From contig CM020618.1 in NCBI GenBank assembly GCA_009829735.1, positions 43,476,878 to 43,540,877 of the forward strand: a DNA stretch of 64,000 bases, written 5' to 3'. Every line of letters begins with the position of its first letter. Within the stretch, counting starts at the first letter, position 1. This document shows positions 13,092-59,384 of the stretch, piece by piece. The notes below the pieces were generated by a model. The model searched no databases. It had not been told where the DNA came from and worked only from the letters and a program-made list of their open reading frames with translations. The DNA comes from Pyropia yezoensis (Eukaryota > Rhodophyta > Bangiophyceae > Bangiales > Bangiaceae). A program made the translations under genes and the position numbers.

Positions 13092-14036
13092 TTACAGTAG
13101 GCGTCGTCGCCTCATGTAAGGCATGAGGAGTTGGCGGGGTATACTCGCCGCCTGTTCCCAGGTGGGGGAGTCGTATCCGACCCACATAACCTTGACGTAC
13201 CAGGGTCCTGGTAGGTCCGGGTCTGTGTGTCCGACCACGCTCTCTACTTGGTATGGAATCCCATCCGGTCCCACCGGGTCATCTGACCGGTGGGTTGTAA
13301 GAGCTTCATGTAGCAAGTCAGCCGGTACCGGCTGAGGCTGTTCCGGCTTCGGAGCAGGTGTCACATCGTTGAGGTTGATGCGTTGTATCTCCGTATCGGA
13401 GTGCAGTATGACAGAGTGATCATCTCTGTGTAAGATCTGGTACGGTCCCTTGCCCGGTTGCATAAGCTTGTTCCCTCGGAACTTCTGGTGTCTGATGTAG
13501 ACCCAGTCACCTGTCATCAGGGTAGCGTTGCGCACCCGTAGTCGGGCGTCGAAGTTCTTCTTGTATCGAAGTTGTGTTCTGTCAAGGGCACCCTTGAGCT
13601 TAGGAATCATCCACGATAGCTTGGCCAACCAAGCTAGGTGGATGCGTTCGGCCGGTCGGCCCTTCGGTGTATCATACCGAGTGCACCTGCCGGGTGGCAG
13701 CGTCAGGTTACCGACCCCTAGTGGCATGACCCACTCCAGTGGGGCGATGTTTGTGCTCCGATGTGGCCTGGCATCGTATGCCAGGGTGAGTACGGACAGA
13801 AGCTTGTCCCAAGTGCTCGTGTGCTCGGCCACGTAGCATTGGAGCATCTTGACGATGGTGCGGTTGAACCGCTCCACTTGTCCGTTGGACTGCGGGTGGT
13901 AGTCGGATGCCCGACGGGGTTCGATACCGAACATGCCCAGGACCTTAGTGCAGAATGCTGATGTAAGGTTTGCTCCGTTATCGGAGAGGAGGTGCTTCAT
14001 TACTCCGTAAGCACTGATCCAGTTCACCATGGTCAA
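13092..14036 (-). pseudogene. Integrase C-terminal half plus chromodomain, out of frame with pol
   Basis: This frame continues pol after a frame break. It carries the second catalytic Asp (HLLSDNG), the catalytic Glu in QSNGQVERFNRT, a GPY-like region, and at the C terminus a chromodomain signature (YQVESVVGH, then WVGYDSPTWEQ). The first catalytic Asp is in the preceding frame (VAIDILGP, near 14165). The join lies around 14030-14045 and needs a +1 shift, which fits one inserted base or two lost. No slippery site is evident there, so I read it as a disabling mutation or a consensus error, not programmed recoding. Chromodomains of this class steer integration towards particular histone marks. 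Confidence 0.85.
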
Positions 14037-27200: not shown

Positions 27201-28141
27201 TCGGCACCCGCGTTCAGCAGCGTCTGAATGGTGGCAACATTACCTCTCCCCGCAGCAAAGTGCAGCGGCGTGCTGCCAGGAGGACTGCCCGTAGGCCCGC
27301 GTTCATTGTCAACAACGGCCGTCCGTTGGAGGAGCGGTACGTACGTGCATAGGCCAAACGGGTTCTCGAATCCGCTGGATGTGGCCTCAACGCAGGCCCC
27401 CGCGTCCAACAATACTCGAGCAGCTGCTGCAGCCCCATCTCTGTCGCCCGTGCCGACCATATCCAGCGCAGTCAGTCCGTCCACAGTGCACACAGCCACA
27501 TTTGCGCTAGCAGATAACAACGTTCGTACTGCTGCAGCGCTCCCACTATACGCCGCACAGTGCAAAGGCGCTTCCCCAAGCTCATTGCTGGCCGCCACGT
27601 CCGCTCCCGCGTCGAGCAGCGCCCGGATGGCAGCCGCGTGCCCAGCTATCCCCGCGTAGTGTAGTGCCGTCGACCGAATGTCGGTGGGAGCGTCTACGGG
27701 CGTGCCAGCGTCAAGTAGCGCCTTGATTGTCGGCACATCGCCGCCGCTGGCCGCCCAGTGCAAAGCCTGAAGCCCGTGATAGTAGCGTGACCCAAGTATG
27801 TGTTCCACGCACCATGTTAACGACGCCGCCACGCTGGCGCCCGCTGCCAGCAGTGCCCGCACCGACGCAACGTCCCCGACGGCAGCCGCCCAGTGCAGGG
27901 CCGTGTCGCCTTCGTCGTTGGCCGCCGTCGCGTCGGCACCCGCGTCAAGGAGCGCCTTTACGGCAGCCACTCTACCGCTCCACGCAGCCTCGTGCAGCGG
28001 CGGCAGCGGCCTCTCCTTCGTCGCATACCACGGCGGCGAGCGGCGCGGCAGCGCTGCGGGCGCGACCGCCGCCGAACCAGTGGGCACTGCCACAAACTGG
28101 GACGTCGGCAGCGGCGGCGGCACCACCGGGGTGGTCGTCAT
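24204..28141 (-). CDS. Large ankyrin-repeat protein, about 30 repeats
   Basis: Start ATG at 28141 (MTTTPVVPPPLPTSQF); the frame is open to 28993 but that part is Pro/Arg low complexity. Ankyrin repeats begin about 110 residues later (PPLHEAAWSGR) and run almost without break, about 30 in all, most of the form TALHSAGRSGSAAAVRTLLE. The central repeats are nearly identical and give a 99-bp DNA period at 25500-27150. Near 24861-24873 a run of 13 T (sense) breaks the frame. Two explanations fit: a 77-nt intron (24919-24843, GTGAGC...CCGCAG, phase 0 on both sides), or a homopolymer indel, since the skipped part itself reads as an ankyrin repeat (TPLHATAKYGR). The final ~210 residues hold two more repeats and a basic Gly-rich tail. 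Ankyrin stacks bind other proteins; no catalytic domain is seen. Confidence 0.82.
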
Positions 28142-29999
28142 GGTCGCTGCGCCGCCCCCAAACTCACACACAACCGCCTCACCAGTTGTTGGCGCCGCGG
28201 CCCGGCCGAAGTCCCCGCCGCCCAACTGCGACTGCCGTGGGGGAAACTGCCGCCGACGGAGCTGGCGGAGCGACCGCGGTGACAGCAGCGGCGGGCGGCC
28301 GCCCAGCCAGCCGGTGGCGGCTGTCGCTGCCGCCACGCGACCGGGCGGCGGCCGGCGGCAGAGATGCTCACACACGCTGCCCAGAGGGGGAAGACGAGTG
28401 CGGGGGGGGGGAGGCGACGACACTCCACCGCGACAAACACCAAGCGTGGGGCTCGGCCGGCACCTTGCAGCGGCCGCAACGGCTGTGGCAGCGGCGGCGC
28501 GCACCTCAGGTCGACGCGGCCGTGGCAGCCGCGGCGCGCAGGGTGGCACCAGCTGGTGGGGGGCGACGGCGGCGCGGCGCCGAGATGGCGGCAAAGCGAA
28601 ACGGGTGGTGGGCCAGGACGGCGAGAGGGAGATGAGACCAGAGCTCGACGGAGACGTCCGCTCGTGCAAGGGCGTGCGTCCGGCCTCGCCGAGTGTCCGC
28701 GCGGAGCGCACGGGCGGCGGCACCTGCGTGTAGGGCGGCGGGGTTTTGAAGCGGTGCATGCCCCCGCGGGGCGGTGCCAACGGCGGGGGCCGCGCGGGGT
28801 GGCCCCGCAGGGGAGGGCCCCTGCTGGCCGGTTGGGTGCCCATACTGTAGGGGATATGACAGGGATCGCCAGGCTGGGCAACGGCGCCGGTCGCCCCGAC
28901 GCGGCCGCCTGCACAATCGTCGCGAGGGGCGGGGGGAGGCCGCCTGCGTGTCGGCGCGCGGCTGGCCCGGCGTGCCCCCTCGGGCGGAGGCACAGGGCAG
29001 GGGGGGCCACGCCGCTACACCGCGGACTCGGCCCACCAGCAGTCGGCTGGACGCCCCAGCTGGCGTGCGCTGGCACGCCCGTCACCCGGCGGGGGGGTGG
29101 CCAAGCGGTGTCCGCGGACCCACCGCAGCGGCGCGCTCCCGCCGGGCGCTCGGCGCGGGCCGGCGGGCTGATTGGGCCAGGTGGTTGGCAGCCGTGCCAC
29201 ACCCCGGCGGGCGCCGCAGCGTGCCGCCGCGCGCGGCGAGGCCGCGGCCCCACGCCGCCCACGCTAAGGTGTCCCCCCCCGCGCGCGGAGCGGCGCCGCC
29301 CAGAGCAGCCGGTGCAGGAGGACGCCTGGGGCCGTCTACGCCGCCGCGGCGCCGCCCCAGTCTCGCCGCCCGCAGCCGTCCGTACTTTCCCGTCGCGCTG
29401 GAGGGACAGGCGGTCCCCCCCCTTCCCCGGGGTGCCCCCGCAAGTGTCGGGCAGCGCCGGCCGGCGGCATCGCCGCGTCGGCCGCCGCACCCCCAACCAC
29501 GCGCGGCACACCCCACGGGTGCCGCGCCCGCGAGTTTTCTTTTTTTTTGTTTGTTTGGCGGCCGACGGGGCGCCGGGCGTGGCCGGCGCGCTGCCGCAGC
29601 CGCTGGCCCGGCTCGCCGTGGCGGCCGCCGCCGCCGCCGCGGCCGCGAGCCGCGGCGGGCGGCCGCTGCGGCGGCCGCCCCGTCGAGCCAGCGGGCGCTG
29701 CCCGTGGGGACCCTGTCCCAGCCGGCGGGGGTGGTCCTCGCGCCACCGGTGGGGTTGCCCACGCCACCGCCGTCATACACGGCGTCGCGCACGCCGCGGC
29801 CGACAGCGACGCCGTCGCCGACGGCGGAGCTCATCGCTGTCGCCCACGCGGACGCCTTCGCCGTCGCCTTCGCCGACACCGACGCCGTCGCCGGCGCTGC
29901 CACCGAGGCTCGGGTACCATGCACACACGAGAACTGAGCGCACGTTCGTGAAATCACCCTGCCTGTAGCCCTTGGATGGCTGGCTGCAGAATGTCCTTT
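28142..29999. other. GC-rich interval upstream of the ankyrin gene, no secure gene
   Basis: Long frames occur on both strands. The minus-strand frame joined to the ankyrin gene (to 28993) is Pro/Arg-rich and is more likely 5' leader. On the plus strand, 29700-29937 reads as an Ala/Thr/Pro-rich C terminus ending AATEARVPCTHEN and a stop, and contains a GACGCCGTCGCC-type microsatellite. Neither is strong enough to call. Confidence 0.3.
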
Positions 30000-39849: not shown

Positions 39850-39871
39850 CCTAACATAAGAATCTACAAAA

Positions 39872-40165
39872 TCGACGAACCACCCCCCCTCAGTTCGTCA
39901 ATTTCGCATGGTTCGTCAATCGACGAACCGCCCCATATGGCCTGGAATCGCCACACCCCCCCCAGGTCGTCAATTTGGCCGGTTCGTCCACTCAGATCCG
40001 GAATCGACGAACCGCCCTTGACGCCCCCCTGGCGCGCATTCGACGAACCCCCCCCAGTTCGTCGATTTGGCCGGTTCTTCCTTTCCGCCCCCAGGCCCCC
40101 CCAGGCGCGCATCCGACGAACCCCCCCTAGTTCGTCAATTTTGCCGGTTCTTCCTTTTGCCACCC
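39872..40165. repeat. Left-end array of GACGAAC/GTTCGTC palindromes, copy 1
   Basis: CGACGAAC boxes recur near 39872, 39921, 40000, 40049 and 40115. Each is followed after a short C-rich spacer by GTTCGTC(A/G), so the boxes form imperfect dyads. The last two lie in tandem units of about 70 bp that also share GGCGCGCAT and GCCGGTTCTTCCTTT. Sub-terminal repeats of this kind are usual binding sites for an element's recombinase or transposase. Confidence 0.7.
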
Positions 40166-41050
40166 ATCGTGCCTGTCCCCCCGCCTCCATTTATGCCACA
40201 CCGCTTGTACCCCCGCCCCCACTTCCTCTCCCCTGCTCCTCCTGTCCGCGGCCCCATGTTGCCCGCTCGCGCATCCCCTCCCCCACCCTCGGCCCCCTTC
40301 CCCCCTCCCCTCCAGTACTTCCCCTCCCTTTTCCCTTCCCCTTTATCCTATGCACCCCAACCCGCCCCCTGCCCAAAATCTAGTGCCCATCCCCCCCCCC
40401 CCTTCCCTGGCTTCCCCCCCCCTTCTCACCCTTCCCCCACCCCCCCTTCCCCCTCCCCCCCCACCCCCTCCCCCCCTCCCATGCACTAAGGTAGAAATTA
40501 CAGCCCCCACGTGGGCGCCTGTATCCACGCCCTTTTGCCTCCCCGATAGCCTGTCCTACTCGCCCCGCTCCCCCCATCCTCCCTTCATCCTCATCCAGCG
40601 TATCCACCTCCCCCTCAGCCTCTGACCACCGTCCCGCCCGACTGTCCCCTCCTCCAAAACTCCCTCACCGTCCTCTAGCCGTGGCCCTCCCCACTCGCAC
40701 GCCCCCTCGCCCACAGACGATTGCCACTTGACTCGCACGCCTCCCCGACCACGGACGCTTGGCCATAACCCTCTTTCTCTCCGCTGCGCCCACCACCACC
40801 TGAGAGGTACCCAATCACACGCCCCCCCCTCCCAGGCGCACGTCTGATCCACCACAAAACGGTCGCCTCTTTGAACAACCCCCTCCATCTCTCCCGCCAA
40901 TGCGCTCACGCGATAGCCGTCGTGGCATTCCCAGTAGCCGTTTTTCTTCCCGCGTAAAAAACTGCCGTCCTCTGCCCGTTTCGCCCACTCGGGGCGTAAC
41001 GCCTGGGCCAACGCCTCCACCCCGCAACGCACCGGTCCCGCGTCCGCGGC

Positions 41051-41210
41051 ACAGTGGGCACACTGCCCCGCCCATAGCCTCTCTACCGACACAGTGGGCA
41101 CACTGCCCCGCCCATAGCCTCTATACCGGCACAGTGGGCACACTGCCCCGCCCATAGCCTCTACAGTGGCACAGTGGGCACGCTGCCCCGCCCACAGCCT
41201 CTATAACAAC
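41051..41210. promoter_or_regulatory. Four 40-bp GC-box repeats before the helicase gene, copy 1
   Basis: ACAGTGGGCACACTGCCCCG starts at 41051, 41091, 41131 and 41171 (the last with one change), an exact 40-bp period. Each unit carries CCCGCCCATAGCCTCTAT. The last unit ends in CTCTATAAC, a TATA-like element, about 200 bp before the ATG. This looks like a promoter built of repeated activator sites. Confidence 0.65.
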
Positions 41211-41409
41211 CGTTACCACTCCGTAGACTCTCTGTTGCCGGCTGGCTGGTGTGCGGCGTGTCCTTCTCTTCCCCCCACTCTGCCCATCCGCCCGCGTCCT
41301 CCTATGCCAGCCGCCCTGCCCTGGTCCTCCCCCGCCACCCGTCCGCCCGCCCCGCCGTCCCTCTCCACCCCCGCCTTTGCCTACCCGTCCCTCCCCCCCA
41401 CTCGCTGCC

Positions 41410-43869
41410 ATGGCAGGCGAAGGCCCAGCCCGGCTCCCCCCATTCCCCCCCCTGCCCCTGACCGTTGTGCTCGCTGAGCGGGCAGCGACACAAGACGGCC
41501 CTGCACCCCCTCTGGCCCCTGTGCCAGCGCCTGCTCCGGTTCCGACTGGGCTGGTTGCGTGGCAGCCGGCGGCGCTCGTCATCTGTATGCCGTGCAAGAC
41601 GGCCATCTATGACGGCACAGAGCTCAAGCACCACCTCGCCACCTCCCCCCACAAGGCCGCGGTGGCGCAAGCGCTGCAGGAGACTCCGCGGCCGGCTGCC
41701 CTCTCATCTGCCACCAGCTCTGTAGACGACTGCAAGGCGATGCTGGCCGCAGGCCCTCAGACGCCGGCGCAAAAGGCCGTCTCCGAGCGCTCCCTCAACT
41801 CTCCGTGGCCTGCTTCCTCGGCCGCGCCGCATCTGGCCCCGCTGCCGGGCCTGCCAACGTATAATGGCTACGTGTGCTACAACTGCAGGTCGGGCAACAC
41901 GGACCTGCGGCAGCTGCAAAAGCAGCACACTGTCCACGGCGACGGCGCTCCACCCCTCGACGATGACCCGTTTGAGGAAAAGTGCGCCAAGGGCATCTAC
42001 ACCCTGGCCACCCTCCAGTCTCTGCAGCGTGGCAACAGGACCAGGCTCTACCCTGTGCAAGAGGTCTCCAACACCCCCCCCGCAGCGGCTGCCCCCGGCG
42101 CGCTGCCGACGGCGGCGACCATGCCTCTGGACGTCTTCCTGGGCGGCGGCCCCCCCCCTGTCGACACTGGCGGCGGCACGGGCGGCAGTGCCGCGGCAGC
42201 CGGCCCTTCCTCTGTGCTTCCAACCTCTGATGACGCCACCGACGCCTCGGCCGGCGGCCTCATGCAAATGTTCCGCTTTGACGCGTCCCTGGCGGCCCTC
42301 CACTGGACGGCCGCGTCGACCATGGAGCACTTTGGGCTGTTTGCCGCCCTCAAGACGACGGCTCCCCCACCCGGCGCACCCGCATACAGTTACGAGCCTC
42401 GTGGCTTGTTTTTCTTTGCCTCCCTCAAGGCGGCCGTCCTGGCGGTCTGCGACGGCGCCCTGTCCTTTGTCAGGGACCGGCGGCCCACTGTCGCCTCGCG
42501 GCTCCGCATCGGCAAGGCCACTGCCGACACGGTGAGCCATCGCCCGTTCAACGTCCGCATCACCCCGCCGACGGTGAGCAAGTACGCGCGCGACACGGCC
42601 ATCCTCCTCTACGTCTGCGTCGAGCTGGCCGCCCTGGGCGCCCGCACAGACACCGAGGTGCTGGAAGACGGCCGGCAGACCCCTGCCCTTTCCGCCGCTA
42701 CCTGTGCGCTGGCTGCCAAGGTACGCCGTGCCTTTCGGGCAAAGGCACCTCGCGTCGTCCAAGTGGTGCGTGACAAGCGGGCGGCGCAGCCAGACTATGC
42801 CGCTGGGCAGGACGACGCGTCCCTGGTGGGCCAGGCGGTCCTTGCCGACGCCGTCTCTGCCCTCTTGCGGGGCATCTTCCACGAGGTCTTTGACCCCCGA
42901 CCGCTGGCCGTCGGCGGCAGTGGCAAAACGCAGTCGGATCTGGCCCTCCTCATGCCCTTTCTCTCCGTCTTGTACCCGTCGGCGACAGCGGCCGCGCTGA
43001 CGACCGCCGGCGGGGACCCCACGGCAGATACGGCCGCCCTGCATGTGAGCTACGTGGACGCGGGGAGCGCTCAGCACCTGGCGGGCGCCCTCATCTTTTT
43101 CACCTACATTGCCAACACCCTTCACCTGATGAAGGAAAAGGTCGCCACCGCGACCGAGTCGTACGCACAAATCGCCGAGCTGTCCAACCCGACGGCCGAC
43201 ACGGCCGCTGCCTACATTGTGCAGCTCTATGCGCACGGCGAGAGCATTGGGCGGTCCGAGCACCTGGCGCCCTCCTTTCTCCCCTGCGAGGACCCCGAAC
43301 ACCTTGTCGATGCCGTGCCGGGCGCCATTTGTGGCTCCCTCCTCACCCGCGGCGTCCACCTCAGCACGGTCACCCTGGGCGAGCGCGTCGTGGCCGCCCA
43401 GGCCCGCATGTATGACAAGGTACGGGAGCTCCTCTTTGGCTACGACCCCGAGCAGTCGTCCTTTTTCACCGACGCCCTGTCGTTGGTGGACGTGCCAACC
43501 CGCCAGGAGCCTGGCGTGTCCTTCCTCCAGATCAAGGAGAACCGCGAGACGGTGCGGCGCCTCCAGTCTCACCTTCTCACGTCTGGCGTCCTCGACTCGG
43601 CCGCCTGCCCCGTACGTCCGGCGTACAAGCGTGCAAGCGGCCCGCGCCGCCCGGGGGAGCCCGCGCGTATGGAGCTCGACCTGTCGGCCCCGCCTGTGGC
43701 GGTCAAGGGCAAGGCCCGCGTAGACGCGTGGCTCAAGCAGGTGGAGCTGCTTCGCGCCGACCTATGGGCCATCATGCACGTTGTCGGGGGCGCTCCCGCC
43801 CGTCAGACCGAGAGCGCGGCCATCTCCATCTGTGCCTCGATCGCCCGCATCCGACGGTCGCTCTTTATC
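41410..43869 (+). pseudogene. Truncated OrsD/recombinase/RecQ-like gene, copy 1
   Basis: Starts gccATGgcaggc like the full copy and encodes its first 820 residues with scattered substitutions. It keeps both N-terminal zinc fingers (ICMPCKTAIYDG...HH...PHK; YVCYNC...). It is then cut before the recombinase-like box and the helicase domain. The frame runs on through the left end of the next unit to a stop at 44040, adding 57 residues encoded by the palindrome array. Any product would be a DNA-binding fragment without enzyme activity, possibly able to interfere with the full protein. Confidence 0.8.
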
Positions 43870-43889
43870 CTAACATACGAATCTACAAA

Positions 43890-44265
43890 ATCGACGAACC
43901 ACCCCCCCTCAGTTCGTCAATTTCGCATGGTTCGTCAATCGACGAACCGCCCCATATGGCCCGGAATCGCCACACCCCCCCCAGTTCGTCAATTTGGCCG
44001 GTTCGTCCTCTCAGATCCGGAATCGACGAACCGCCCGTGACGCCCCCCAGGCGCGCATTCGACGAACCCCCCCCAGTTCGTCGATTTGGCCGGTTCTTCC
44101 TTTCCGCCCCCACTGCCCCCCAGGCGCGCATTCGACGAACCCCCCCCAGTTCGCCAAAATCGCCGGTTCTTCCTTTTCGCCCCCACGCCCCCCCAGGCGC
44201 GCATTCGACGAACCCCCCTCAGTTCGTCAATTTCGCCGGTTCTTCCTTTTGCCACCCGTCGTGCC
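43890..44265. repeat. Left-end array of GACGAAC/GTTCGTC palindromes, copy 2
   Basis: Same design as in copy 1, with three tandem units of about 70-75 bp (44055-44265). The TCGACGAAC...GTTCGTCGA dyad is exact in some units and decayed in others (GTTCGCCAAAA near 44150). The final unit runs into CTTTTGCCACCC as in copy 1. Confidence 0.7.
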
Positions 44266-45145
44266 TGTCCCCCCGCCTCCATTTATGCCACACCGCTTGT
44301 ACCCCCGCCCCCACTTCTTCTCCCCTGCTCCTCCTGTCCGCGTCCCTACCTTGCCCGCTCACCCATGCCTTCCCCCATCCTCTGCGCGCTTCCCCCCTCC
44401 CCTCCCAGTACTTCCCCTCCTCCCTTCACCCCTCCTCTTCATCCTGTGCACCCCTACCCGCCTCCTCGCCAAACTTCAGTGCCCAACCCCCCCCCCTCCT
44501 CCCTGGCCCCCCCCCCCCTTCCCACCCTTCCCCAGCCCCCCTTCCCCCTCCCGCCCCACCCCCTCCTCCCCTCCCATGCACTAAGGTAGAAATTACAGCC
44601 CCCTTGTGGGCGCCTGTATCCACGCCCTTTTGCCTCCCCGATAGCCTGTCCTACTCGCCCCGCCCCCCCCCTCCTCCGTCCATCCTCATCCAGCGTATCC
44701 ACCTAGCCCTCAGCCTGTAACGACCGTGCCGCCCCACTGTCCCCTCCTCCAAAACTCCCTCACGGTCCTCTAGCCGTGGCCCTCCCCACTCGCACGCCCC
44801 CTCGCCCACAGACGCTTGCCACTTGACTCGCACGCCCCCCCGACCACGGGCGCTTGGCCATAACCCTCTTTCTCTCCGCTGCGCCCACCACCACCTGAGA
44901 GGTACCCAGTCACACGCCCCCCATTCCCAGGCGCACGTCTGATCCACCACAAAACGGTCGCCTCTTTGAACAACCCCCTCCATCTCTCCCGCCAATGCGC
45001 TCACGCGATAGCCGTCGTGGCATTCCCAGTAGCCGTTTTTCTTCCCTCCTAAAAAACTGCCGTCCTCTGCCCGTTTCGCCCACTCGGGGCGTAATGCCTG
45101 GGCCAACGCCTCTACCCCGCAACGCACCGGTCCCGCGTCCGCGGC

Positions 45146-45305
45146 ACAGTGGGCACACTGCCCCGCCCATAGCCTCTCTACCGACACAGTGGGCACACTG
45201 CCCCGCCCATAGCATCTATACCGGCACAGTGGGCACACTGTCCCGCCCATAGCTTCTACAGTGGCACAGTGGGCACGCTGCCCCGCCCACAGCCTCTATA
45301 ACAAC
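45146..45305. promoter_or_regulatory. Four 40-bp GC-box repeats before the helicase gene, copy 2
   Basis: ACAGTGGGCACACTG at 45146, 45186, 45226 and 45266 (one change in the last), with the same CTCTATAAC end as copy 1, about 200 bp before the ATG at 45505. Conservation of number and spacing between copies points to a working promoter or to recent duplication. Confidence 0.65.
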
Positions 45306-45504
45306 CGTTACCACTCCGTAGACTCTCTGTTGTCGGCTGGCTGGTGTGCGCCGTGTCCCTCTCTTCCCCCCACTCTGCCCATCCGCCCGCGTCCTCCTAT
45401 GCCAGCCGCCCTGCCCTGGTCCTCCCCCGGCACCCGTCCTCCCGCCCCGCCGTCCCTCTCCGCCGCCGCCTTTGCCTACCCGTCCCTTCCCCTCACCCGC
45501 TGCC

Positions 45505-48500
45505 ATGGCAGGCGAGGGCCCAGCCCAGCTCCCCCCATTCCCCCCCCTTCCCCTGACCGTTGTGCCCGCTCAGCGGGCAGCGACACAAGACGGCCCCGCC
45601 CCCCCTCTGGCCCCTGTGCCAGCGCCTGCGCCGGTTCCGACTGGGCTGGTTGCGTGGCAGCCCGCGGCGCTCGTCATCTGTATGCCGTGCAAGACGGCCA
45701 TCTATGACGGCACCAAGCTCAAGCACCACCTCGCCACCTCCCCCCACAAGGCTGCCGTGGCGCAAGCGCTGCAGGAGACCCCGCGGCCGGCTGCCATCTC
45801 GTCTGCCACCAGCTCTGTGAACGACTGCAAGGCGATGCTGGCCGCAGGCCCTCAGACGCCGGCGCAAAAGGCCCTCTCCGAGCGCTACCTCAACTCCCCT
45901 TGGCCTGCTTCCTCGGCCGTGCCGCATCTGGCTCCTCTGCCGGGCCTGCCAACGTATGATGGCTACGTATGCTACAACTGCAAGTCGGGCAACACGGACC
46001 TGCGGCAGCTGCAAAAGCAGCACACTGTCCACGGCGACGGCGCTCCACCCCTCGACGATGACCCGTTTGAGGAAAAGTGCGCCAAGGGCATCTACACCCT
46101 GGCCACCCTCCAGTCTCTGCAGCGTGGCAACAGGACCAGGCTCTACCCTGTGCAAGAGGTCTCCAACACCCCCCCCGCAGCGGCTGCCCCCGGCGCGCTG
46201 CCGACGGCGGCGACCATGCCCCTGGACGTTTTCCTGGGCGGCGGCCCCCCCCCTGTCGACACTGGCGGCGGCACGGGCGGCAGTGCCGCGGCAGCCGGCC
46301 CTTCCTATGTGCTTCCAACCTCTGAGGACGCGACCGACGTCTCGGCCGGAGGTCTCATGCAAATGTACCGTTTTGACGCGTCCCTGGCGGCCCTCCACTG
46401 GACGGCCGCGTCGACCATGGAGCACTTTGGGCTGTTTGCCGCCCTCAAGACGACGGCTCCCCCACCCGGCGCACCCGCAGACAGTTACGAGCCTCGTGGC
46501 TTGTTTTTCTTTGCCTCCCTCAAGGCGGCCGTCCTGGCGGTCTGCGACGGCGCCCTGTCCTTTGTCAGGGACCGGGGGCCCACTGTCGCGTCGCGGCTCC
46601 GCATCGGCAAGGCCACTGCCGACACGGTGAGCCATCGCCCGTTCAACGTCCGCATCACCCCGCCGACGGTGAGCAAGTACGCGCGCGACACGGCCGTCCT
46701 CCTCTACGTCTCCGTCGAGCTGGCCGCCCTGGGCGCCCGTACCGACACCGAGGTGCTGGAAGACGGCCGGCAGACCCCTGCCCTTTCCGCCGCTACCAGT
46801 GCGCTGGCTGCCAAGGTACGCCGTGCCTTTCGGGCAAAGGCACCTCGCGTCATCCAAGTCGTGCGTGACAAGCGGGCGGCGCAGCCAGACTATGCCGCTG
46901 GGCAGGACGACGCGTCCCTGGTGGGCCAGGCGGTCCTTGCCGACGCCGTCTCTGCCCTCTTGCGGGGCATCTTCCACGAGGTCTTTGACCCCCGACCGCT
47001 GGCCGTCGGCGGCAGTGGCAAAACGCAGTCGGATCTGGCCCTCCTCATGCCCTTTCTCTCCGTCTTGTACCCGTCGGCGACAGCGGCCGCGCTGACGACC
47101 GTCGGCGGGGACCCCACGGCAGATACGGCCGCCCTGCATGTGAGCTACATGGACGCGGGGAGCGCCCAGCACCTGGCGGGCGCCCTCATCTTTTCCACCC
47201 ACATTGCCAACACCCTTCACCTGATGAAGGAAAAGGTCGCCACCGCGACCGAGTCGTACGCGCAAATCGCCGACCTGTCCAACCCGACGGCCGACACGGC
47301 CGCTGCCTACATTGTGCAGCTCTATGCGCACGGCGAGAGCATTGGGCGGTCCGAGCACCTGGCGCCCGCCTTTCTCCCCTGCGAGGACCCCGAGCACCTT
47401 GTCGATGCCGTGCCGGGCGCCATTTGTGGCTCCCTCCTCACCCGCGGCGTCCACCTCAGCACGGTCACCCTGGGCGAGCGCGTCGTGGCCGCCCAGGCGC
47501 GCATGTATGACAAGGTACGGGAGCTCCTCTTTGGCTACGACCCCGAGCAGTCGTCCTTTTTCACCGACGCCCTGTCGTTGGTGGACGTGCCAACCCGCCA
47601 GGAGCCTGGCGTGTCCTTCCTCCAGCTCAAGGAGAACCGCGAGACGGTGCGGCGCCTCCAGTCTCACCTTCTCACGTCTGGCGCCCTCGACTCGGCCGCC
47701 TGCCCCGTACGTCCGGCGCACAAGCGTGCAAGCGGCCCGCGCCGCCCGGGGGAGCCCGCGCGTATGGAGCTCGACCTGTCGGCCCCGCCTGTAGCGGTCA
47801 AGGGCAAGGCCCGCGTGGACGCGTGGCTCAAGCAGGTGGAGCTGCTTCGCGCCGACCTATGGGCCATCATGCACGTTGTCGGGGGCGCTCCCGCCCGTCA
47901 GACCGAGAGCGCCGCCATCTCCATCTGTGCCTCGATCGCCCGCATCCGACGGTCGCTCTTTATCCACGATGGACAGGTCTACATTGTCCTGTTCTACCAC
48001 AAGGGCCAAGTGCAGGGCCAAGGGGTTGGGCGACCCATTGCCCGCTTTCTAGACGCCAAGACGTCGGCGCTCGTCCTCCTCATCCTCACCCTCCTAGACC
48101 CGCTAGAGGCCTACATTGCACGGGCCGTCGCCCCCACTGCGGGCGCTGGAGCAGCCCCTATGGACCGCAGCCTGCTTTTCCGCGACTCGCGCGGCGGGCA
48201 GCTGTCCGCGCGGCACCTGTCTACGGCCCTCGAGTCGAGACTCTTGGGCGGTGTCACGAGGCTCCCCATGGGCGTCCGCGTCTACCGCCAGGTCTCCGCC
48301 GCCATGGCCAAGGCCGTCACCAAGGCAGATCTGCTGGCCGTCGCCTACGGAACCCCCCAAGCGGAGGAGGCAGACAGGGGCTCGGTCATGGAGCTGCAGA
48401 GCGGTCACTCGAGCCGAACGGCGGCTGGCAGCTACGCCGGCGACCCGTCGCTGACGTTTGCCAGCCTCACCAACCTGGCATTTTTCAAGTTTCGTCAAGT

Positions 48501-51500
48501 GTCTTTGCTGTGGCACGCTTCCATGGGTCTGGCATCGACCCACGTGGGGGGCTCTCTACGCCGGCCCCTCGAGCCGGCACAGGTGGCCATCAATGCCATC
48601 AAGTCGGTCGGCCGCGGTGGTGATCGTCCCAGCGGCGGCGCGACGACCACCGCCGCAGGACCAGCAGCAGGAGCATCCGACGCTGGGGCGCCCCCCCCCC
48701 TGTCACTCCCGCTAGCCGTGCAGCTGGGGCGTCCGAGGCGCATCCCCACCGTCTCTGCCCTCAAGATGGTGGACGAGCTGGTTTCCAAGCGCTTTGGCAG
48801 CTACAAGTCTGCCGAGCAAGAGGCGGGCACCCACCACATCTTGCTGGCTCGTGACCCGCAGACCATTCTTCTCGTCCTTCCTACCGGGGGAGGCAAGTCT
48901 GCCTGCATCCTTCTCCCTGTCGCCTGTGAAGCAGAGTGTGCCCGCACGCTACTGCTGCCTGGCCCCGCCGTTACCTTTGTCCTCTCCCCCACCCGTGCCG
49001 TGTCGGCAACCATCAAGGAAGCCGCCAAAGCCCTTGGACTGGTCGTCGTCATGTGGCGGCGGGGCGGCTGTGCGTGCCCCGAGTCGGCGTCGCTCGTCAT
49101 TGTGGACATTAGTACGGCCGTCCAAGACATGGCGGACCTTCTCCTGTTTGTCAGCCATCTCGATGGCCAAGGTCGGCTCGCCCGCTTTGTCGTGGACGAG
49201 GCCCACCTGGTCAACCTTTGGTCGGCCTTTCGGTACCACCTCCTCCACCTCCGGACCCTGCTGGCTGATCTACCTTGCCCGCTGGTCCTGCTGACCGCCA
49301 CCGCCCCTGTCGCGTGGGTGCGGTCGCTGGTCAACTCGGTGACCCTCTCCCCGTCGCGGCCGCTGTCTGTCATCCGCCCCGCGTCGACGCGGCGCCCCAA
49401 CATCCAGTACCGGGTCGAGCCATGCCCCGAGCCCTACCAAGCCGCCCCCATCCCCGACGCCAACGCCCGCCTGCACGCTGCCATGGCCGCGCGTATCAAC
49501 GTCCAAGTTGCCGCCATTCGAAACCCGTCGGGCGACCGCCAAGGTCGCTCTGCCATTATTGGCTGCTTTTGCGAGACGGTCAAGGAGGTCACCGGCGTGG
49601 CAGACGCCCTCTGCGCCGCACTTGGCGCCAGCGACTCTGACGGCGCTGCCGACGACGTGGTCGTCCTCATGTTTCACTCGACCGGCAACTCTATTGCCTC
49701 TCGCCAAGGTGCACACAACAACAATGGCGTGAGCGGTGTGGGCACAACCTCAACGGGCGGTGAAGCTGCTGCAGCCGCCCCCGGGACCTCTGGTGCCCCT
49801 CCTGTCGGCAGCAGTGGCGACACACCCAACCCTGACTTTATCGTCCACCAGCTCTTTGGCCGGGGACAGCGCCTTGGCGGTCAAGGTGTTGGCGGTGTTG
49901 GTGGGGGGACCCCGTTGAGCTCGTCCTCTGGTCAGGTTTCCGCAGCCGCCCTCGTTGAAGAAGTCTCCCACCGGCCAGGCGTAGGCGTCACCGTTGTTGT
50001 CGGCTCGCCTGCCGTGTCGACGGGCACGGACTTTCCCCGCATGGTTTGGGCGCTCTTCTTGAGCTCTCGCAACCTCATGTCGTTTGCCCAAACGTCGGGC
50101 CGCCTGTGCCGCAACCCGACATTGGTCGGCACCGCCGTGGTGTGGGTCCCCGAGCACTACTCCCGTGTCCTGACCGACGTCGACCAGGCCGAGCGGATCC
50201 CGCAACTCGAAGCGCTTGGTGACTTTGTCAAGTGGGCTTGCCTTCCGCCCACTTGCTGTCGCCGCCTGGGTCTCGACACCGTGCTGGATGGCACCCATCC
50301 AGACGACTTTTTGTCGTGCGTTGCCGGCAACTTTGCCAAGTGCGACTATTGCTCCCCGACGGGAACGGCCAAGCGCGGTCGAGGGGGGCAGGGCAATGAC
50401 GGCGGCGGCGACGGAGGCGGTGGTAAGCGGCACCAAGCCAACAATGGGCAGCAGCCACCGCCGCAACTAGGCCCTCCTCCGAGCGAGGGCCCGTCTCCCG
50501 GCGGCGCTGGAGGCACCGGCAGCCGTGGCATTCGCCAATTTCTCAACTCGGCGCCCCGGCCTCTCGGACGCGCGCCACTTGCCGCGGCGGAGCCTGACGC
50601 TGAGGGGCCTCGTACACCGTCGAGACCAGCGACGTCGACCATGTCGGATGATGGAGCGGGCGAAGACGACGGCGACGTCCTCGAGTCTCTCGTCAACCTC
50701 TATCCAATGTCGTTTGTCACCCCCCCCCGCCAAGGTCGGCGGTCGGCAGCGGCAGACTCGGAGTTTGAGCAGGCTTTGCTCGACACACCCATTCCCGCTA
50801 GCAGGCAGCCGACCCGGGTGGATCATCCCGCAGGGTCGCCCGTCGGCGGGACCCGACTTCCGGTTGTGCAAGCGGCACTGGAGAGGGGGATGCGCGCCGC
50901 TGCTGCCGTGGTGCAAAGCGTCCATCAAGGTGGAGACACCCGACCCTGTGCATGGTGCCGCGCGTTATCCGTGTCGCAGTTTCCAGAGTCGCATGGCTAT
51001 GGCAGCTGCTTCCCCTCCTTTTGCATGCACTGTGTGCGGCCTTCCATCAAGCCGGGCAGCCTCAACGTCGACACCGTCCACGCGGTGTGCGTTAAGACCT
51101 ACGCAAACTGCAAGAAGGACCGGACCCCGTGGGATCGATCGGGTCTAGGCTCTCCATCCGCCAAGGGCACCATCTGTAGCGGCTGTCGCCTTTCTCGCAC
51201 CATTCGCCCCGATCAACATCTGAGTTTGGACTCTCATGCTCGAGACGGCTTTGGTGCGACCAAGTGCGCGTGGACGTTTTGTATCAAGGTCGTCCTCATC
51301 CAGGTGCACCTGGCGCGCTCCGAGATGTCAACGACGAACGACACATTTGCTGAGGCGCTCTTCAACGCGTGCAAGGTGGCCTACACGTTGGAGCCACAAG
51401 GCGCCGACCTGGCGACGGACACACCTTCTGTGGCAGAGCGTGTTATTCCAGCTCGTCTGGTCGATTGGGGCAGCGAGAGCAGCCCTCCGAGTGTCGACTT

Positions 51501-51591
51501 GGTGGCTTCTTGGTTGACGGACGGGGGGACCTTGCCCAACATTGTTTTGTTTGCGCCTGTGCTCGCGCGTGCGTTTGGTTTGACGTTTTGA
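45505..51591 (+). CDS. OrsD-like zinc finger / tyrosine-recombinase-like / RecQ-like helicase fusion (2028 aa)
   Basis: Single-exon giant protein. I start at gccATGgca (45505), the same context as in copy 1; an in-frame ATG at 45346 only adds Pro-rich leader. Residues 59-81 form a C2H2-like finger (Cys59, Cys62, His75, His81) and 156-176 a second (Cys156, Cys159, His173/176), in the style of the OrsD/DUF3505 domain. Residues ~919-980 carry a tyrosine-recombinase-like box: RLPMGVRVYRQVS, then LQSGHSSRTAAGSY with His968 and Tyr977 at the usual 9-residue spacing. A superfamily-2 helicase follows: LPTGGGKS (Lys1131), VVDEAH (1230-1234), LLTATAP (~1262) and QTSGRLCR (~1529-1536). The C-terminal third is Gly/Pro linker and a Cys-rich domain (CAWC at 1815, CMHC, CSGC) ending WLTDGGTLPNIVLFAPVLAR. 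OrsD-RecQ proteins are known from fungi, often subtelomeric. Domain calls are by motif. Confidence 0.8.
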   Translation: MAGEGPAQLPPFPPLPLTVVPAQRAATQDGPAPPLAPVPAPAPVPTGLVAWQPAALVICMPCKTAIYDGTKLKHHLATSPHKAAVAQALQETPRPAAISSATSSVNDCKAMLAAGPQTPAQKALSERYLNSPWPASSAVPHLAPLPGLPTYDGYVCYNCKSGNTDLRQLQKQHTVHGDGAPPLDDDPFEEKCAKGIYTLATLQSLQRGNRTRLYPVQEVSNTPPAAAAPGALPTAATMPLDVFLGGGPPPVDTGGGTGGSAAAAGPSYVLPTSEDATDVSAGGLMQMYRFDASLAALHWTAASTMEHFGLFAALKTTAPPPGAPADSYEPRGLFFFASLKAAVLAVCDGALSFVRDRGPTVASRLRIGKATADTVSHRPFNVRITPPTVSKYARDTAVLLYVSVELAALGARTDTEVLEDGRQTPALSAATSALAAKVRRAFRAKAPRVIQVVRDKRAAQPDYAAGQDDASLVGQAVLADAVSALLRGIFHEVFDPRPLAVGGSGKTQSDLALLMPFLSVLYPSATAAALTTVGGDPTADTAALHVSYMDAGSAQHLAGALIFSTHIANTLHLMKEKVATATESYAQIADLSNPTADTAAAYIVQLYAHGESIGRSEHLAPAFLPCEDPEHLVDAVPGAICGSLLTRGVHLSTVTLGERVVAAQARMYDKVRELLFGYDPEQSSFFTDALSLVDVPTRQEPGVSFLQLKENRETVRRLQSHLLTSGALDSAACPVRPAHKRASGPRRPGEPARMELDLSAPPVAVKGKARVDAWLKQVELLRADLWAIMHVVGGAPARQTESAAISICASIARIRRSLFIHDGQVYIVLFYHKGQVQGQGVGRPIARFLDAKTSALVLLILTLLDPLEAYIARAVAPTAGAGAAPMDRSLLFRDSRGGQLSARHLSTALESRLLGGVTRLPMGVRVYRQVSAAMAKAVTKADLLAVAYGTPQAEEADRGSVMELQSGHSSRTAAGSYAGDPSLTFASLTNLAFFKFRQVSLLWHASMGLASTHVGGSLRRPLEPAQVAINAIKSVGRGGDRPSGGATTTAAGPAAGASDAGAPPPLSLPLAVQLGRPRRIPTVSALKMVDELVSKRFGSYKSAEQEAGTHHILLARDPQTILLVLPTGGGKSACILLPVACEAECARTLLLPGPAVTFVLSPTRAVSATIKEAAKALGLVVVMWRRGGCACPESASLVIVDISTAVQDMADLLLFVSHLDGQGRLARFVVDEAHLVNLWSAFRYHLLHLRTLLADLPCPLVLLTATAPVAWVRSLVNSVTLSPSRPLSVIRPASTRRPNIQYRVEPCPEPYQAAPIPDANARLHAAMAARINVQVAAIRNPSGDRQGRSAIIGCFCETVKEVTGVADALCAALGASDSDGAADDVVVLMFHSTGNSIASRQGAHNNNGVSGVGTTSTGGEAAAAAPGTSGAPPVGSSGDTPNPDFIVHQLFGRGQRLGGQGVGGVGGGTPLSSSSGQVSAAALVEEVSHRPGVGVTVVVGSPAVSTGTDFPRMVWALFLSSRNLMSFAQTSGRLCRNPTLVGTAVVWVPEHYSRVLTDVDQAERIPQLEALGDFVKWACLPPTCCRRLGLDTVLDGTHPDDFLSCVAGNFAKCDYCSPTGTAKRGRGGQGNDGGGDGGGGKRHQANNGQQPPPQLGPPPSEGPSPGGAGGTGSRGIRQFLNSAPRPLGRAPLAAAEPDAEGPRTPSRPATSTMSDDGAGEDDGDVLESLVNLYPMSFVTPPRQGRRSAAADSEFEQALLDTPIPASRQPTRVDHPAGSPVGGTRLPVVQAALERGMRAAAAVVQSVHQGGDTRPCAWCRALSVSQFPESHGYGSCFPSFCMHCVRPSIKPGSLNVDTVHAVCVKTYANCKKDRTPWDRSGLGSPSAKGTICSGCRLSRTIRPDQHLSLDSHARDGFGATKCAWTFCIKVVLIQVHLARSEMSTTNDTFAEALFNACKVAYTLEPQGADLATDTPSVAERVIPARLVDWGSESSPPSVDLVASWLTDGGTLPNIVLFAPVLARAFGLTF

Positions 51592-51714
51592 TAAAGAGAT
51601 GCTGTCATTGCTGTGGAACAGGCATGCTGAGCGACGAAGCCGGTGTTGAGGTCTCACCTGTCCCACAGGTGCACATGTCATGCAGCACAAAACGGAGCAA
51701 GGGGGGCAAACCTC

Positions 51715-52118
51715 GTTTTAAAGCAGTACAAAACTCGCCCGACTCGACCCCCCGTGGATGCATTTCAAAGCAGTACAAAACTCGTCCTGCTCGACGCGCC
51801 ATGTATACGTATCAAAGCAGCACCATACTCGTCCGACCCGTCCCACCGTGGACTCGTTTCAAAGCAGTACAAAACTTTTCCCACTTGACGCGCCATGCAC
51901 ACGTTTCAAAGCAGTACAAAACTCGTCCTGCTCGACACTCCATGCATACGTTTCAAAGTAGTACAAAACTCATTCCGCTCCAACACGCGCGCAAACGTTT
52001 CAAAGCAGTACAAAACTCGTTGGACCTGTTCCACCGTGGACTTGTTTCAAAGCAGTACAAAACTCGTCCAGACCCTCCCGCCCTCGTGTCGATGGGTTTC
52101 GAAGTAGTATGAAGCAAG
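51715..52118. repeat. 47-bp-period iteron-like array with a 20-bp core
   Basis: The core TTTCAAAGCAGTACAAAACT, or a close variant, begins one base after 51715, 51762, 51809, 51856, 51903, 51950 and 51997 and 52044: seven successive steps of exactly 47 bp. A decayed ninth copy sits at 52096. The 27 bp between cores vary much more and fall into two loose types, one with CCGTGGA and one with GCGCCATG. A constant core with drifting but fixed-length spacers implies selection on spacing and core, as in iterons or centromere-like binding arrays. It lies between the helicase stop and a ParB-like gene. Confidence 0.82.
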
Positions 52119-52467
52119 ACAGGCTGTCCCAATTTCAATTACGCAGATCAATTCCTATCGTTCATTAAGTATTGTACTTACAGTGCAAGAACTCCATATT
52201 AGATGAACTTGATCCAATCGACACCGTTTCGGATCAAGTCTCTGCCTGGCACTGAACGCTTGCCCTGTGGCCATGTCTTTCAGAGTCCAGGTTCGACGGG
52301 CTGTCATGATTTTATATCCGCCCTCAGTCGACCACGCCGCGCCTCGGCCGCCCATTCTTTTTGCAGACCATGTTGCGGTGTTCTCCAACGTCCTCCAGTC
52401 CACTCACTCCCCCTCTCCCAAGTACTCGTCCTCTTCTTACGCCCTCCGTTTCCCTCTGTGCCATATC

Positions 52468-53424
52468 ATGGCAGGTGGCGCATCTGGCAAGGCATCTCCT
52501 GACGCGGGCATCACTTCTGTTGTGGACCGTAGTGGCCCATCTGCGGCTGGGGGCGGGTCACCTGCTCAGGCGACCACGATGTCGGACGCTGAGATGGGTG
52601 TCGAGGCAGGGATTGGTGCGGTCGACGCTGAGGCAGATATTGGCATTGCAGCTGTGGCGTCGGCCAATTCTGATGATGTTGCAGGCGACAGCGCTGAAGA
52701 GGGCTATCCTTTGCCCAGCTTCCAGCACCCGCATCCGACTTCTCCGTCAGGGTTTCCCAAGTTTGTATGGCATGACTATGCCGCGGACTATGGCGAGGGT
52801 GTGCTACGCCATGTCCCAGTCTGTGAGATCCGCAAGGCGGAGCACATCCGCGCCATTAGCGATGGTCACGTGGCCCGTTACGCATCCTCATTTCGAGTGC
52901 GCGGCTACAACACCCTTTTGGGCATTGTGACGGTGTGCCTTGACCCGACGGGCGCCCGCAAGTGGCTTATTGTGGATGGGGGCCATCGTCTGGCTGCCAT
53001 GAAGGTGCTGCTCGAGGAAGACCATCCGCGTGCGCAGTCGGAAGTTATTGCTCGAGTGATCCAACGCTCGGACGCGACTCCCATGTCAGAGCTGGACGCT
53101 GTCAAGGTGAGCTGGTTCATCAATTGTTCGCCCCCCCCCTCTGCTCCCATTCATCATGCGGACTACGATCGCTTGGCACGTCGTCTCATATCGGCGGCTC
53201 CGCGGTGCGGCGCTCATCTAGACCTTTCGAGCATTATTAGCGAGCTACGATCCAAGGGCTACCCTGAGGACGGCGGGATTGGATGCTCCGGGCCAGCCTC
53301 TATTGTCCAGCCTCTTTCCTGGCCTCTTCATTGGATGCCACCTAAGGAACGGTCGGGTGACCTCGCTCTGTTTCAGAAAACTCCTCCTCCGTCGGCCAGT
53401 AGTGCGGAAAATCGTACCGATTGA
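52468..53424 (+). CDS. ParB/Srx-fold protein 1 (318 aa)
   Basis: Start at ATGgcaggt (52468); the frame is open from 52267 but upstream residues look like leader. The N-terminal ~80 residues are acidic and low complexity. A ParB-like core then runs from ~105: VCEIRKAEHIRA, FRVRGYNTLLGIVTVC, then WLIVDGGHRLAAMKVL with Asp170, His173 and Arg174. This matches the ParB/Srx superfamily box (G-x-H-R-x-x-A). Sulfiredoxins have Cys before the His; here it is Gly, so this is not a sulfiredoxin. ParB-type proteins bind DNA sites and often hydrolyse CTP or act as nucleases; which applies here is unknown. The C terminus starts a second, related half-domain (LSSIISELRSKGY) that is not completed. It sits just right of the 47-bp array, same strand as the helicase. 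Confidence 0.7.
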   Translation: MAGGASGKASPDAGITSVVDRSGPSAAGGGSPAQATTMSDAEMGVEAGIGAVDAEADIGIAAVASANSDDVAGDSAEEGYPLPSFQHPHPTSPSGFPKFVWHDYAADYGEGVLRHVPVCEIRKAEHIRAISDGHVARYASSFRVRGYNTLLGIVTVCLDPTGARKWLIVDGGHRLAAMKVLLEEDHPRAQSEVIARVIQRSDATPMSELDAVKVSWFINCSPPPSAPIHHADYDRLARRLISAAPRCGAHLDLSSIISELRSKGYPEDGGIGCSGPASIVQPLSWPLHWMPPKERSGDLALFQKTPPPSASSAENRTD

Positions 53425-54254: not shown

Positions 54255-54977
54255 ATGGCGGAACGTGCATCTTCGCCCAACATGACGCTGGACTCCGAGG
54301 TGGCCAGTAACGCTGTTGTCGACCCAGACGGCGCTTCCGCAGCGGACATGCCCCCGGAGCCCGTTAGGACTCCCAACTTTGCGTTGGACTTCAGGCATGG
54401 CAACTCTCAAGAGGTGGAACTTTCCCACGTGCGAATTTCCTTACATCCGGCTCGACCGGTTTACGATGATATTGTCGAGAGGTTCTGCACCTCTTTTCGT
54501 GACCGCGGCTACACCCCACTGCTCGGGTCTGTATCTGTTTGTCGCGACCCCACGGGTGAGGCGCAGTGGCTCTTGATTGACGGCGGTCATCGCCTTGCCG
54601 CGATGAAGGTGCTTCTGGAGGAGATGCATTCAAATGCGCTCTCGGGAATGTCAGCGCGTGTCTACTCTCGCTCGGACGGAACTACCATGACGGAGGTGGA
54701 CGCGCTCCAGCTGGGCATTTATCTGAACCGTGCTCGCCGCCAGCGGCCCAACAATCACGAGTTGGCGGTCAACATTATTGAGTTGTCCATTCGTCATGGT
54801 GGACCGTCGGATATGAGTTCAGTTTATGCAGCCTGGCGTCGCAATGGCACCAGCTCGGCGGGCCGCCGTGCCTACGCAACCCGTGATTCTTCCAGCGGCC
54901 GATGGGTTCTTGTCGATGGCTCTCATCGATTGGCCGCTCTTCAGGGACTCGATCCCAACGGTGACGAGCGGCACTAG
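54255..54977 (+). CDS. ParB/Srx-fold protein 2 with two DGxHR boxes (240 aa)
   Basis: Start gcaATGgcg at 54255. The ParB-like core aligns with protein 1: FRDRGYTPLLGSVSVC, then WLLIDGGHRLAAMKVLLEEM with Asp109 and His112. A second box, WVLVDGSHRLAALQ (Asp221, His224, Arg225), closes the protein and follows a region like the unfinished C terminus of protein 1. Two tandem boxes suggest an internal duplication, partly lost in protein 1. It has the same strand and order as its neighbour, 830 bp downstream, so the pair probably arose by gene duplication. Function is inferred only from the fold motif: DNA-site binding or nucleotide-dependent action on DNA. Confidence 0.7.
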   Translation: MAERASSPNMTLDSEVASNAVVDPDGASAADMPPEPVRTPNFALDFRHGNSQEVELSHVRISLHPARPVYDDIVERFCTSFRDRGYTPLLGSVSVCRDPTGEAQWLLIDGGHRLAAMKVLLEEMHSNALSGMSARVYSRSDGTTMTEVDALQLGIYLNRARRQRPNNHELAVNIIELSIRHGGPSDMSSVYAAWRRNGTSSAGRRAYATRDSSSGRWVLVDGSHRLAALQGLDPNGDERH

Positions 54978-55297: not shown

Positions 55298-55626
55298 GTT
55301 TCAAAGCAGTACAAAAGATGAATGTGATCATTCGAGTTATGTTTCCCGCTCCCACGTCAGCAGCACAAAATGAAGATTGCTCTCATCTGACGACCGTTTC
55401 AAAGCAGTACAAAAGTCATGTTCCGGCTTCACACCAGATCAAACAAGATCGACCAGATCTCCATTTCAAAGTAGTACAAAACACCCAGACAAGCCAACCG
55501 TTTCAAAGCAGTACAAAGCAAGTTGATGTCGTTTCAAAGTAGTGCAAAACTTCGGAGTTTCAAAGTAGTACAAACCTGTCGCACGCTTGGGTACAAAACC
55601 TTGACTTTCAAAAGTAGTACAAAAGG
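55298..55626. repeat. Decayed second array of the 20-bp core
   Basis: GTTTCAAAGCAGTACAAAA or close variants (GTAGTACAAA, GTAGTGCAAAA) start near 55298, 55396, 55463, 55500, 55531, 55557 and 55604. Spacing is irregular (98, 67, 37, 31, 26, 47 bp), unlike the strict 47-bp array at 51715. It lies right of the second ParB-like gene, so both ParB-like genes are flanked by the same repeat. Confidence 0.72.
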
Positions 55627-57618: not shown

Positions 57619-58118
57619 NNNNNNNNNNNNNNNNNNNNNNNNNNNNNNNNNNNNNNNNNNNNNNNNNNNNNNNNNNNNNNNNNNNNNNNNNNNNNNNNNN
57701 NNNNNNNNNNNNNNNNNNNNNNNNNNNNNNNNNNNNNNNNNNNNNNNNNNNNNNNNNNNNNNNNNNNNNNNNNNNNNNNNNNNNNNNNNNNNNNNNNNNN
57801 NNNNNNNNNNNNNNNNNNNNNNNNNNNNNNNNNNNNNNNNNNNNNNNNNNNNNNNNNNNNNNNNNNNNNNNNNNNNNNNNNNNNNNNNNNNNNNNNNNNN
57901 NNNNNNNNNNNNNNNNNNNNNNNNNNNNNNNNNNNNNNNNNNNNNNNNNNNNNNNNNNNNNNNNNNNNNNNNNNNNNNNNNNNNNNNNNNNNNNNNNNNN
58001 NNNNNNNNNNNNNNNNNNNNNNNNNNNNNNNNNNNNNNNNNNNNNNNNNNNNNNNNNNNNNNNNNNNNNNNNNNNNNNNNNNNNNNNNNNNNNNNNNNNN
58101 NNNNNNNNNNNNNNNNNN
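57619..58118. other. Assembly gap, 500 N
   Basis: Exactly 500 unknown bases, a conventional scaffold-gap size, so the true distance is unknown. Frames drawn across it are meaningless, and the order and orientation of the two sides rest on the scaffolding. Confidence 0.97.
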
Positions 58119-59384
58119 CGGGAGCTGCGGCTTATCGGACCGTTCCACCATCTCATGTCACTTCTTCCCCCCTTTCACCTGCTGCCGACGCTGCCGGAAG
58201 TCTGCCAGACTCCTCTTTGTGGCGCGCAAAAGAGGCAGCCCCAACCCCAGAGAAGCGGGGGCTAACGTACTCGGGACAGCTTCAAACCCCTCCCCGCCAA
58301 GTGCGTCAACGAATGGGTGCTGCGTCATGGTCGGCGACGACCGGGCGTGGGCAGGCGCCTGCGCCTGAGTCGGGCGGTGGTCGGCAGGCTGTGACACTGG
58401 CGGACAGCAGTGGGCGAGCCACGTCGGCAGGCGGAACGATGGCTGGGCCGGAGCATAGTGCGTTGGTGCAGACTCAACTGGTGCAGGGGCGCCTCGTCGT
58501 TGAACGACCACCCGTCGTAGGCATAGGTGCCCGCCACAGCGACGGGCCCCCGCCCCAGTCGTGGTGCACCGGCCTTGGCGACTAGGCCGTCCGTGGCGGC
58601 TGTTGCTCCGGGCACCCTGGGCACACTGCATGTTGCCAATTGGCAAGTACGGGATGCTACCCTGCAAGCGTTGGAGTTTGGTAGGAGGGCCGCTACGGCG
58701 ATTATGGACAGCCGCCAGGCGGATAGTGTTCGGCCTTGTGCAGCATGCTGCGCTCTTCGCGTTCCGTCTGTTCCTGCCCGGCGGCATACGCCCGCCGCCT
58801 GTTTCAAGAACATTTGCTGCTCGTGCTTGCGGACGTCTCGGTACGTGTCGGCGGAATCGGCGGAGCGGCCATTGGAAAACGTGTGCTCAACGCCCAGTGC
58901 CGAGTGCAGGAACGTGCCACCACCGTGGATTCCTGTGTACCCGGAGGAAGGCGAGCCTGAAGGATCGTGTACGGGTTGTGGGCTCCCACCGAGTGTGGTC
59001 ATCCCATCTGTTGGGGTTTTTGGTCTGCACGCTCAAGGACAACGCGGCAATCTCAAGTGCCCATGGGCGTTCACCATCCGCGTGGCAATGCTTCAAATGG
59101 CGCGTGCTCGTACGGGCATGGCAATGCAACGGCCGCTCTTTTCTGTTGCTCTTCAGCAGCGATGCCACATTGCTTGGACGTGGCCAGAGGAGGCGCTGGG
59201 GGCAGAAGACGCGGTCAGGCGCTGCGTACGTCTCCCTCCACGGAACATCCTCGACTGGGGCGACTCTCTTGACGGTATGTCTTCAAGATCCTTTGCTCAA
59301 TGGTTGACGTCTGGCACGACGTTGCCAAATGTTGTGCTCTTCGCGCCAGTGCTTGCAAAGGCTTTGGGCGTGTTGCCTCTCTAG
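58119..59384 (+). pseudogene. C-terminal part of a diverged helicase paralogue
   Basis: Readable from the gap edge in one frame to about 58585 (Gly/Pro/Ser linker, ending in a stop), then from about 58527 in the next frame to the stop at 59384. The second part aligns with the C terminus of the 2028-aa protein: RPCAACC for RPCAWC, KCPWAFTIRVAMLQM for KCAWTFCIKVVLIQV, WGDSLDG for WGSESS, and WLTSGTTLPNVVLFAPVLAK for WLTDGGTLPNIVLFAPVLAR. It is clearly homologous but much more diverged than copies 1 and 2 are from each other, so it is not the missing tail of copy 1. The frame break could be decay or a consensus error; the helicase core, if present, lies in or left of the gap. Confidence 0.75.

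Follow-up and report, generated by a model that had tools for sequence, protein, structure and literature searches.

To our knowledge there is no settled account of how telomere-linked helicase genes spread and remain similar at the ends of chromosomes. The DNA considered here is a 64,000-nucleotide stretch from Pyropia yezoensis (contig CM020618.1), referred to in its entirety as the window. An open reading frame (ORF) in the second of two adjacent copies of a repeat, copies A and B, encodes a 2,028-residue protein, P0001, whose parts run in the order OrsD, tyrosine-recombinase-like domain, RecQ helicase and Cys-rich tail. Analysis of this protein and its relatives suggests that the OrsD-RecQ architecture of telomere-linked helicases here carries, in its middle, a tyrosine recombinase whose catalytic residues are all in place, and that strand exchange by this domain, on balance, probably moves or amplifies the protein's own repeat. 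The fusion had been recorded in an earlier note on this DNA as the trait of a single protein; it is indeed present, but proved to be a trait of the family found. The parts of the protein are as follows, with counts referring to the family members that cover each site.

45505..51591, plus strand: ORF of copy B, open from ATG to stop, 2,028 residues
45667..46020, plus strand: OrsD domain (residues 55-172), bearing a pair of C2H2-like fingers; it scores 28.3 bits against Pfam PF12013, whose cut-off is 26.6
47797..48540, plus strand: tyrosine-recombinase-like catalytic domain (residues 765-1012; alignment, predicted model and fold searches)
47896..47898, plus strand: R798, first catalytic-type Arg (ARQTES), 14/14
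48001..48003, plus strand: K833, catalytic-type Lys, 14/14
48286..48288, plus strand: R928, second catalytic-type Arg (VRVYRQ), 15/15
48406..48408, plus strand: H968 (GHS), 15/15
48433..48435, plus strand: Y977, presumed nucleophile (SYAGDP), 15/15, nine residues after H968 in each
48772..50364, plus strand: RecQ helicase with zinc knuckle (residues 1090-1620; motifs, Pfam and PDB sequence matches)
50875..51582, plus strand: Cys-rich tail (residues 1791-2026), conserved in P0004 and P0005

The recombinase-like middle domain across the family

Searching with residues 50-1720 gave three proteins: P0003, which is the window's own, and a pair of relatives whose identities are 38% and 35%. With the alignment of those three over residues 700-1620 as query, eight proteins were recovered, including P0010 (25% identity) and P0009 (23%), the latter carrying OrsD, DEAD and Helicase_C; a search from P0009 and P0010 gave 22 proteins, seven of them new ones covering the middle region. 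The counted set comprises 15 members (P0001, P0004-P0010 and P0014-P0020). The window's own P0003 was dropped before counting, as were P0011-P0013, in which 20-28% of the query is covered, and P0021-P0033 (19-33% covered), which form no part of the alignment of the five catalytic-type residues (the pentad). Coverage varies among the members: P0007 begins downstream of R798 and K833, the end of P0008 falls within the helicase, and P0020 is without a helicase match. Neither viral nor genome contigs yielded a confirmed relative with DNA context, in a search that may pass over records close to the genome of the window itself.

Alignment of these members revealed that the pentad, which follows the R, K, R, H, Y order of the catalytic residues of tyrosine recombinases and type IB topoisomerases, is retained wherever it is covered, with a spacing from first Arg to Lys of 33-35 residues in 14 of 14 members and from second Arg to His of 31-65 residues among the 15. 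Within residues 600-1030, 18 of the 287 columns covered by at least 13 of the 15 members are invariant and, since all five recombinase-type positions are among them, their conservation is beyond chance; when 11 domain slices were aligned, 14 of 317 columns were invariant, the five again included. The Arg, His and Tyr whose conservation across homologues the earlier note had named as a check are thus invariant together with the Lys, the arginine that it saw in VRVYRQ being R928 and the His and Tyr nine residues apart in GHSSRTAAGSY being H968 and Y977. R798 (ARQTES) and K833 were absent from that note, as were the truncated upstream head-to-tail copy and the palindrome clusters described below.

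The predicted fold of residues 620-970 matches tyrosine recombinases, and the outcome named beforehand as refuting, a fold unlike theirs, did not occur; the His/Tyr helix is without confident placement in the model. In a structure search with the predicted model, Xer and Cre scored 10.1-8.5, above topoisomerases IB, and a viral fold library yielded 56 matches, all of them weak (the best at E 0.044), among which were phage integrases and two proteins of Feldmannia virus. No integrase-type match was obtained at the sequence level in Pfam, PHROGs or a profile search of PDB sequences, and the Pfam scan of the protein placed no family between OrsD (55-172) and the DEAD helicase (1111-1270); this failure of sequence-only recognition reflects a limit of the method and is not proof that a recombinase domain is absent. 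The His that usually stands three residues before the second Arg of recombinases (H-x-x-R), though not universally in the superfamily, occurs in 0 of 15 members, the position being R, Q, S, A or V.

The domain resembles XerH, XerA and Cre in predicted fold, in the order of the pentad and in the His-Tyr spacing of nine, but differs from them in lacking both a sequence-level match and the H-x-x-R His, in its fusion to RecQ and in the low-complexity inserts between second Arg and His. Type IB topoisomerases and protelomerases have the same superfamily fold with structural scores under those of Xer and Cre, and have the pentad without the extra His, as does the protein here. Taken together, a domain of tyrosine-recombinase fold with an intact catalytic set is very probably present.

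The OrsD and RecQ parts and their known counterparts

Both of the C2H2-like fingers claimed previously were located by eye (C59-x2-C62...H75-x5-H81 and C156-x2-C159...H173-x2-H176), in a protein whose OrsD match passes the curated PF12013 cut-off, as does that of P0002 (31.5 bits). The helicase part matches DEAD (PF00270) at residues 1111-1270 with 42 bits in Pfam, and the PDB entries closest to it in sequence belong to RecQ helicases, BLM, RECQ1 and RECQ5 among them. The RecQ motif-0 Gln and Walker Lys are present in all 14 members reaching them. For the DE box, motif III Thr and motif VI Gln the count is 13 of 13, as it is for three zinc-knuckle Cys, the fourth standing at 12 of 13; at the positions checked, the helicase motif set is complete, as described earlier. 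A fold search of the predicted structure of P0010 also recovered the RecQ fold, although the matches listed are all taken up by the helicase and say nothing on the middle domain. By sequence motif and predicted fold, the helicase works like RecQ, yet it lies outside the curated NCBIfam RecQ model, TIGR00614 giving 40.3 bits, far under the cut-off of 219.8; the top NCBIfam match for P0001, DpdF (58.1 bits), is likewise under its cut-off of 550. The helicase core, motif 0 Gln and zinc knuckle are held in common with BLM, WRN, RECQ1 and RECQ5, from which the protein differs in its large inserts and other domains as well as in that low score. The Cys-rich tail, also seen earlier, recurs in diverged form, and alone, in a separate ORF at 58527-59384 (plus strand), which is 35.7% identical to P0001 over 58668-59372 and 39.3% identical to P0004, and which stands downstream of a 500-base N gap (57619-58118).

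Crypton, DIRS and Starship are eukaryotic elements with a tyrosine recombinase, and we know of no RecQ fusion in their recombinases. Helitrons use an HUH Rep and a different helicase. Like the protein here, Helitron RepHel joins a strand-cutting domain and a helicase in one large protein, according to PMC6431247. The statement in the earlier note that OrsD occurs with RecQ in fungi, often near telomeres, is borne out by PMC10532341, where the Ustilago telomere-linked helicases UTASa and UTASb combine OrsD with a RecQ-like helicase and where a 1998 Ustilago paper is cited, reports of such fungal genes going back to the 1990s; in PMC11457142 one gene of Metarhizium is given both descriptions, OrsD and recQ helicase. 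The fungal architecture is that found here, but in the passages considered of the two sources no recombinase is described in it. The tie to the fungal proteins is one of architecture, via relatives such as P0009.

Two head-to-tail copies and their palindromic left ends

The genomic setting of the ORF comprises the following features.

39850..43870, plus strand: copy A, comprising the leader and codons 1-820 and truncated between R798 and K833 (nucleotide alignment and tblastn)
43869..45504, plus strand: 5' leader of copy B, which follows straight on from the interrupted ORF of copy A and overlaps it by 2 bases (CC)
39869..40142, no strand: left-end palindrome cluster of copy A, with arms AATCGACGAAC / GTTCGTC[GA]ATT
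43888..44236, no strand: left-end palindrome cluster of copy B, with like arms, lying in 73-bp tandem repeats
51714..52069, plus strand: 47-bp minisatellite 3' of the ORF (tandem-repeat scan)

The copies seen in the window number two, lie adjacent to each other and show 96.0% identity across 3,852 columns and 94.7% across another 318. Where copy A breaks off, the left end of copy B (CCTAACATA) starts, two bases being common to both, and a search of the window for the missing 3' part of copy A did not recover it. That copy B had inserted into copy A was considered and set aside; a simple tandem duplication may account for the arrangement. Each leader contains 40-bp tandem repeats of about four units (41047-41205 and 45142-45300), the minus strand of which reads as short Cys-containing repeats, perhaps by chance.

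The coding parts of the two copies (97.4% identical) differ at 64 of 2,460 positions, with 30 amino-acid differences and a dN/dS of 0.32 (NG86) or 0.23 (YN00). When these changes were placed at random, amino-acid differences averaged 45.9 and never fell under 35 in 2,000 trials; as judged from this comparison of sequences, at least one copy is evidently under selection across the N-terminal 820 codons, which hold R798 alone of the pentad. The ratio was dropped as evidence for divergence of two living elements, since a similar value would be expected if one copy were constrained and the other free. It does not tell mobile insertion from tandem duplication. Outgroups at the 30 amino-acid differences favoured copy A at five and copy B at eight, which decides nothing.

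Allowing at most two mismatches per 10-base arm, six palindromic pairs were found in the whole window, with spacers of 8 or 12 bases, and all lie in the two left ends. A blind scan (11-base arms, at most one mismatch, 4-14-base spacers, low-complexity arms excluded) identified 29 inverted-repeat loci in the 64 kb, seven of which are left-end palindromes, although these are partly tandem copies of one another and hence not independent. Recombinase sites such as loxP and dif are of similar size, which makes the palindromes natural candidate recombinase sites. Telomere-like tandem units (5-8 bases, at least four copies) were absent from the window except for CCG-type runs, and an Rfam scan of the window gave no match.

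The minisatellite motif, TTTCAAAGCAGTACAAAAC, forms two arrays in the same orientation (51714-52069 and about 55299-55576), with 11 sites at up to three mismatches. Between the arrays sit two plus-strand ORFs (52267-53424 and 54255-54977) that could be cargo or neighbours; they have a common ParB/DndB-like stretch (DGGHRLAAMKVLLEE), and their Pfam matches are weak and under cut-off (DndB, E 0.15; GmrSD_N, E 0.0031). The same GC-rich window is occupied on the minus strand by a polyprotein (13978-17508) in which Pfam finds reverse transcriptase, RNase H and an integrase zinc domain and which we take to be of Ty3/gypsy type, and by a long ankyrin-repeat ORF of 1,414 residues (24749-28993); these two point to a probable eukaryotic host.

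A probable mobility protein weighed against its alternatives

On the most likely reading, the protein serves the mobility of a selfish repeat. Its OrsD fingers and its recombinase domain would bind the arms of the palindromes grouped at the left end, where, as the residues and fold suggest, Y977 would attack the DNA backbone with the aid of R798, K833, R928 and H968, so that strands are cut and rejoined. The RecQ part may then unwind or migrate the branched intermediate, with copies being excised, integrated or amplified side by side. The two copies, their left-end palindromes and the truncated head-to-tail arrangement appear compatible with the mover-and-replicator idea put forward earlier.

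As the main alternative, the middle domain could nick and rejoin DNA in the manner of a type IB topoisomerase or telomere resolvase and, with RecQ, maintain chromosome ends, copies spreading only by homologous recombination between subtelomeres. This seems less likely given the higher structural scores of Xer and Cre, the absence of a telomere repeat from the 64-kb window and the [GSAT]H[ST]...Y-box of these proteins, which resembles that of recombinases. It is more improbable still that the middle domain is a relic retained solely to bind DNA, with the protein being a helicase and the two copies a local tandem duplication. At its left end copy B directly abuts the interrupted frame of copy A, overlapping it by 2 bases, as in a simple duplication, and the leader identity (94.3% over 1,559 ungapped columns) is near that of the coding part; against this, invariance of the five catalytic-type residues would be unexpected of a relic, and the deficit of amino-acid differences in the N-terminal codons indicates selection on at least one copy.

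The reading of the protein as a mobility protein could feasibly extend further, although this is advanced tentatively: OrsD-RecQ proteins, fungal telomere-linked helicases included, may be unrecognised tyrosine-recombinase mobile elements, in which fingers, a strand-exchange domain and a RecQ motor form a build like that of Helitron RepHel from unrelated parts, and in which the recombinase acts on left-end palindrome clusters, seeding and spreading arrays of copies. No report of a tyrosine recombinase in OrsD-RecQ proteins, nor of a pairing of tyrosine recombinase and RecQ, was found in the open-access literature searched (preprints and most subscription papers being outside that scope). The retention of recombinase catalytic residues in the relatives compared points to an unnoticed DNA-moving domain in a helicase family that is known from the ends of fungal chromosomes. 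If so, a recombinase inside the same protein would be a direct, testable answer to how telomere-linked helicase genes spread and remain alike.
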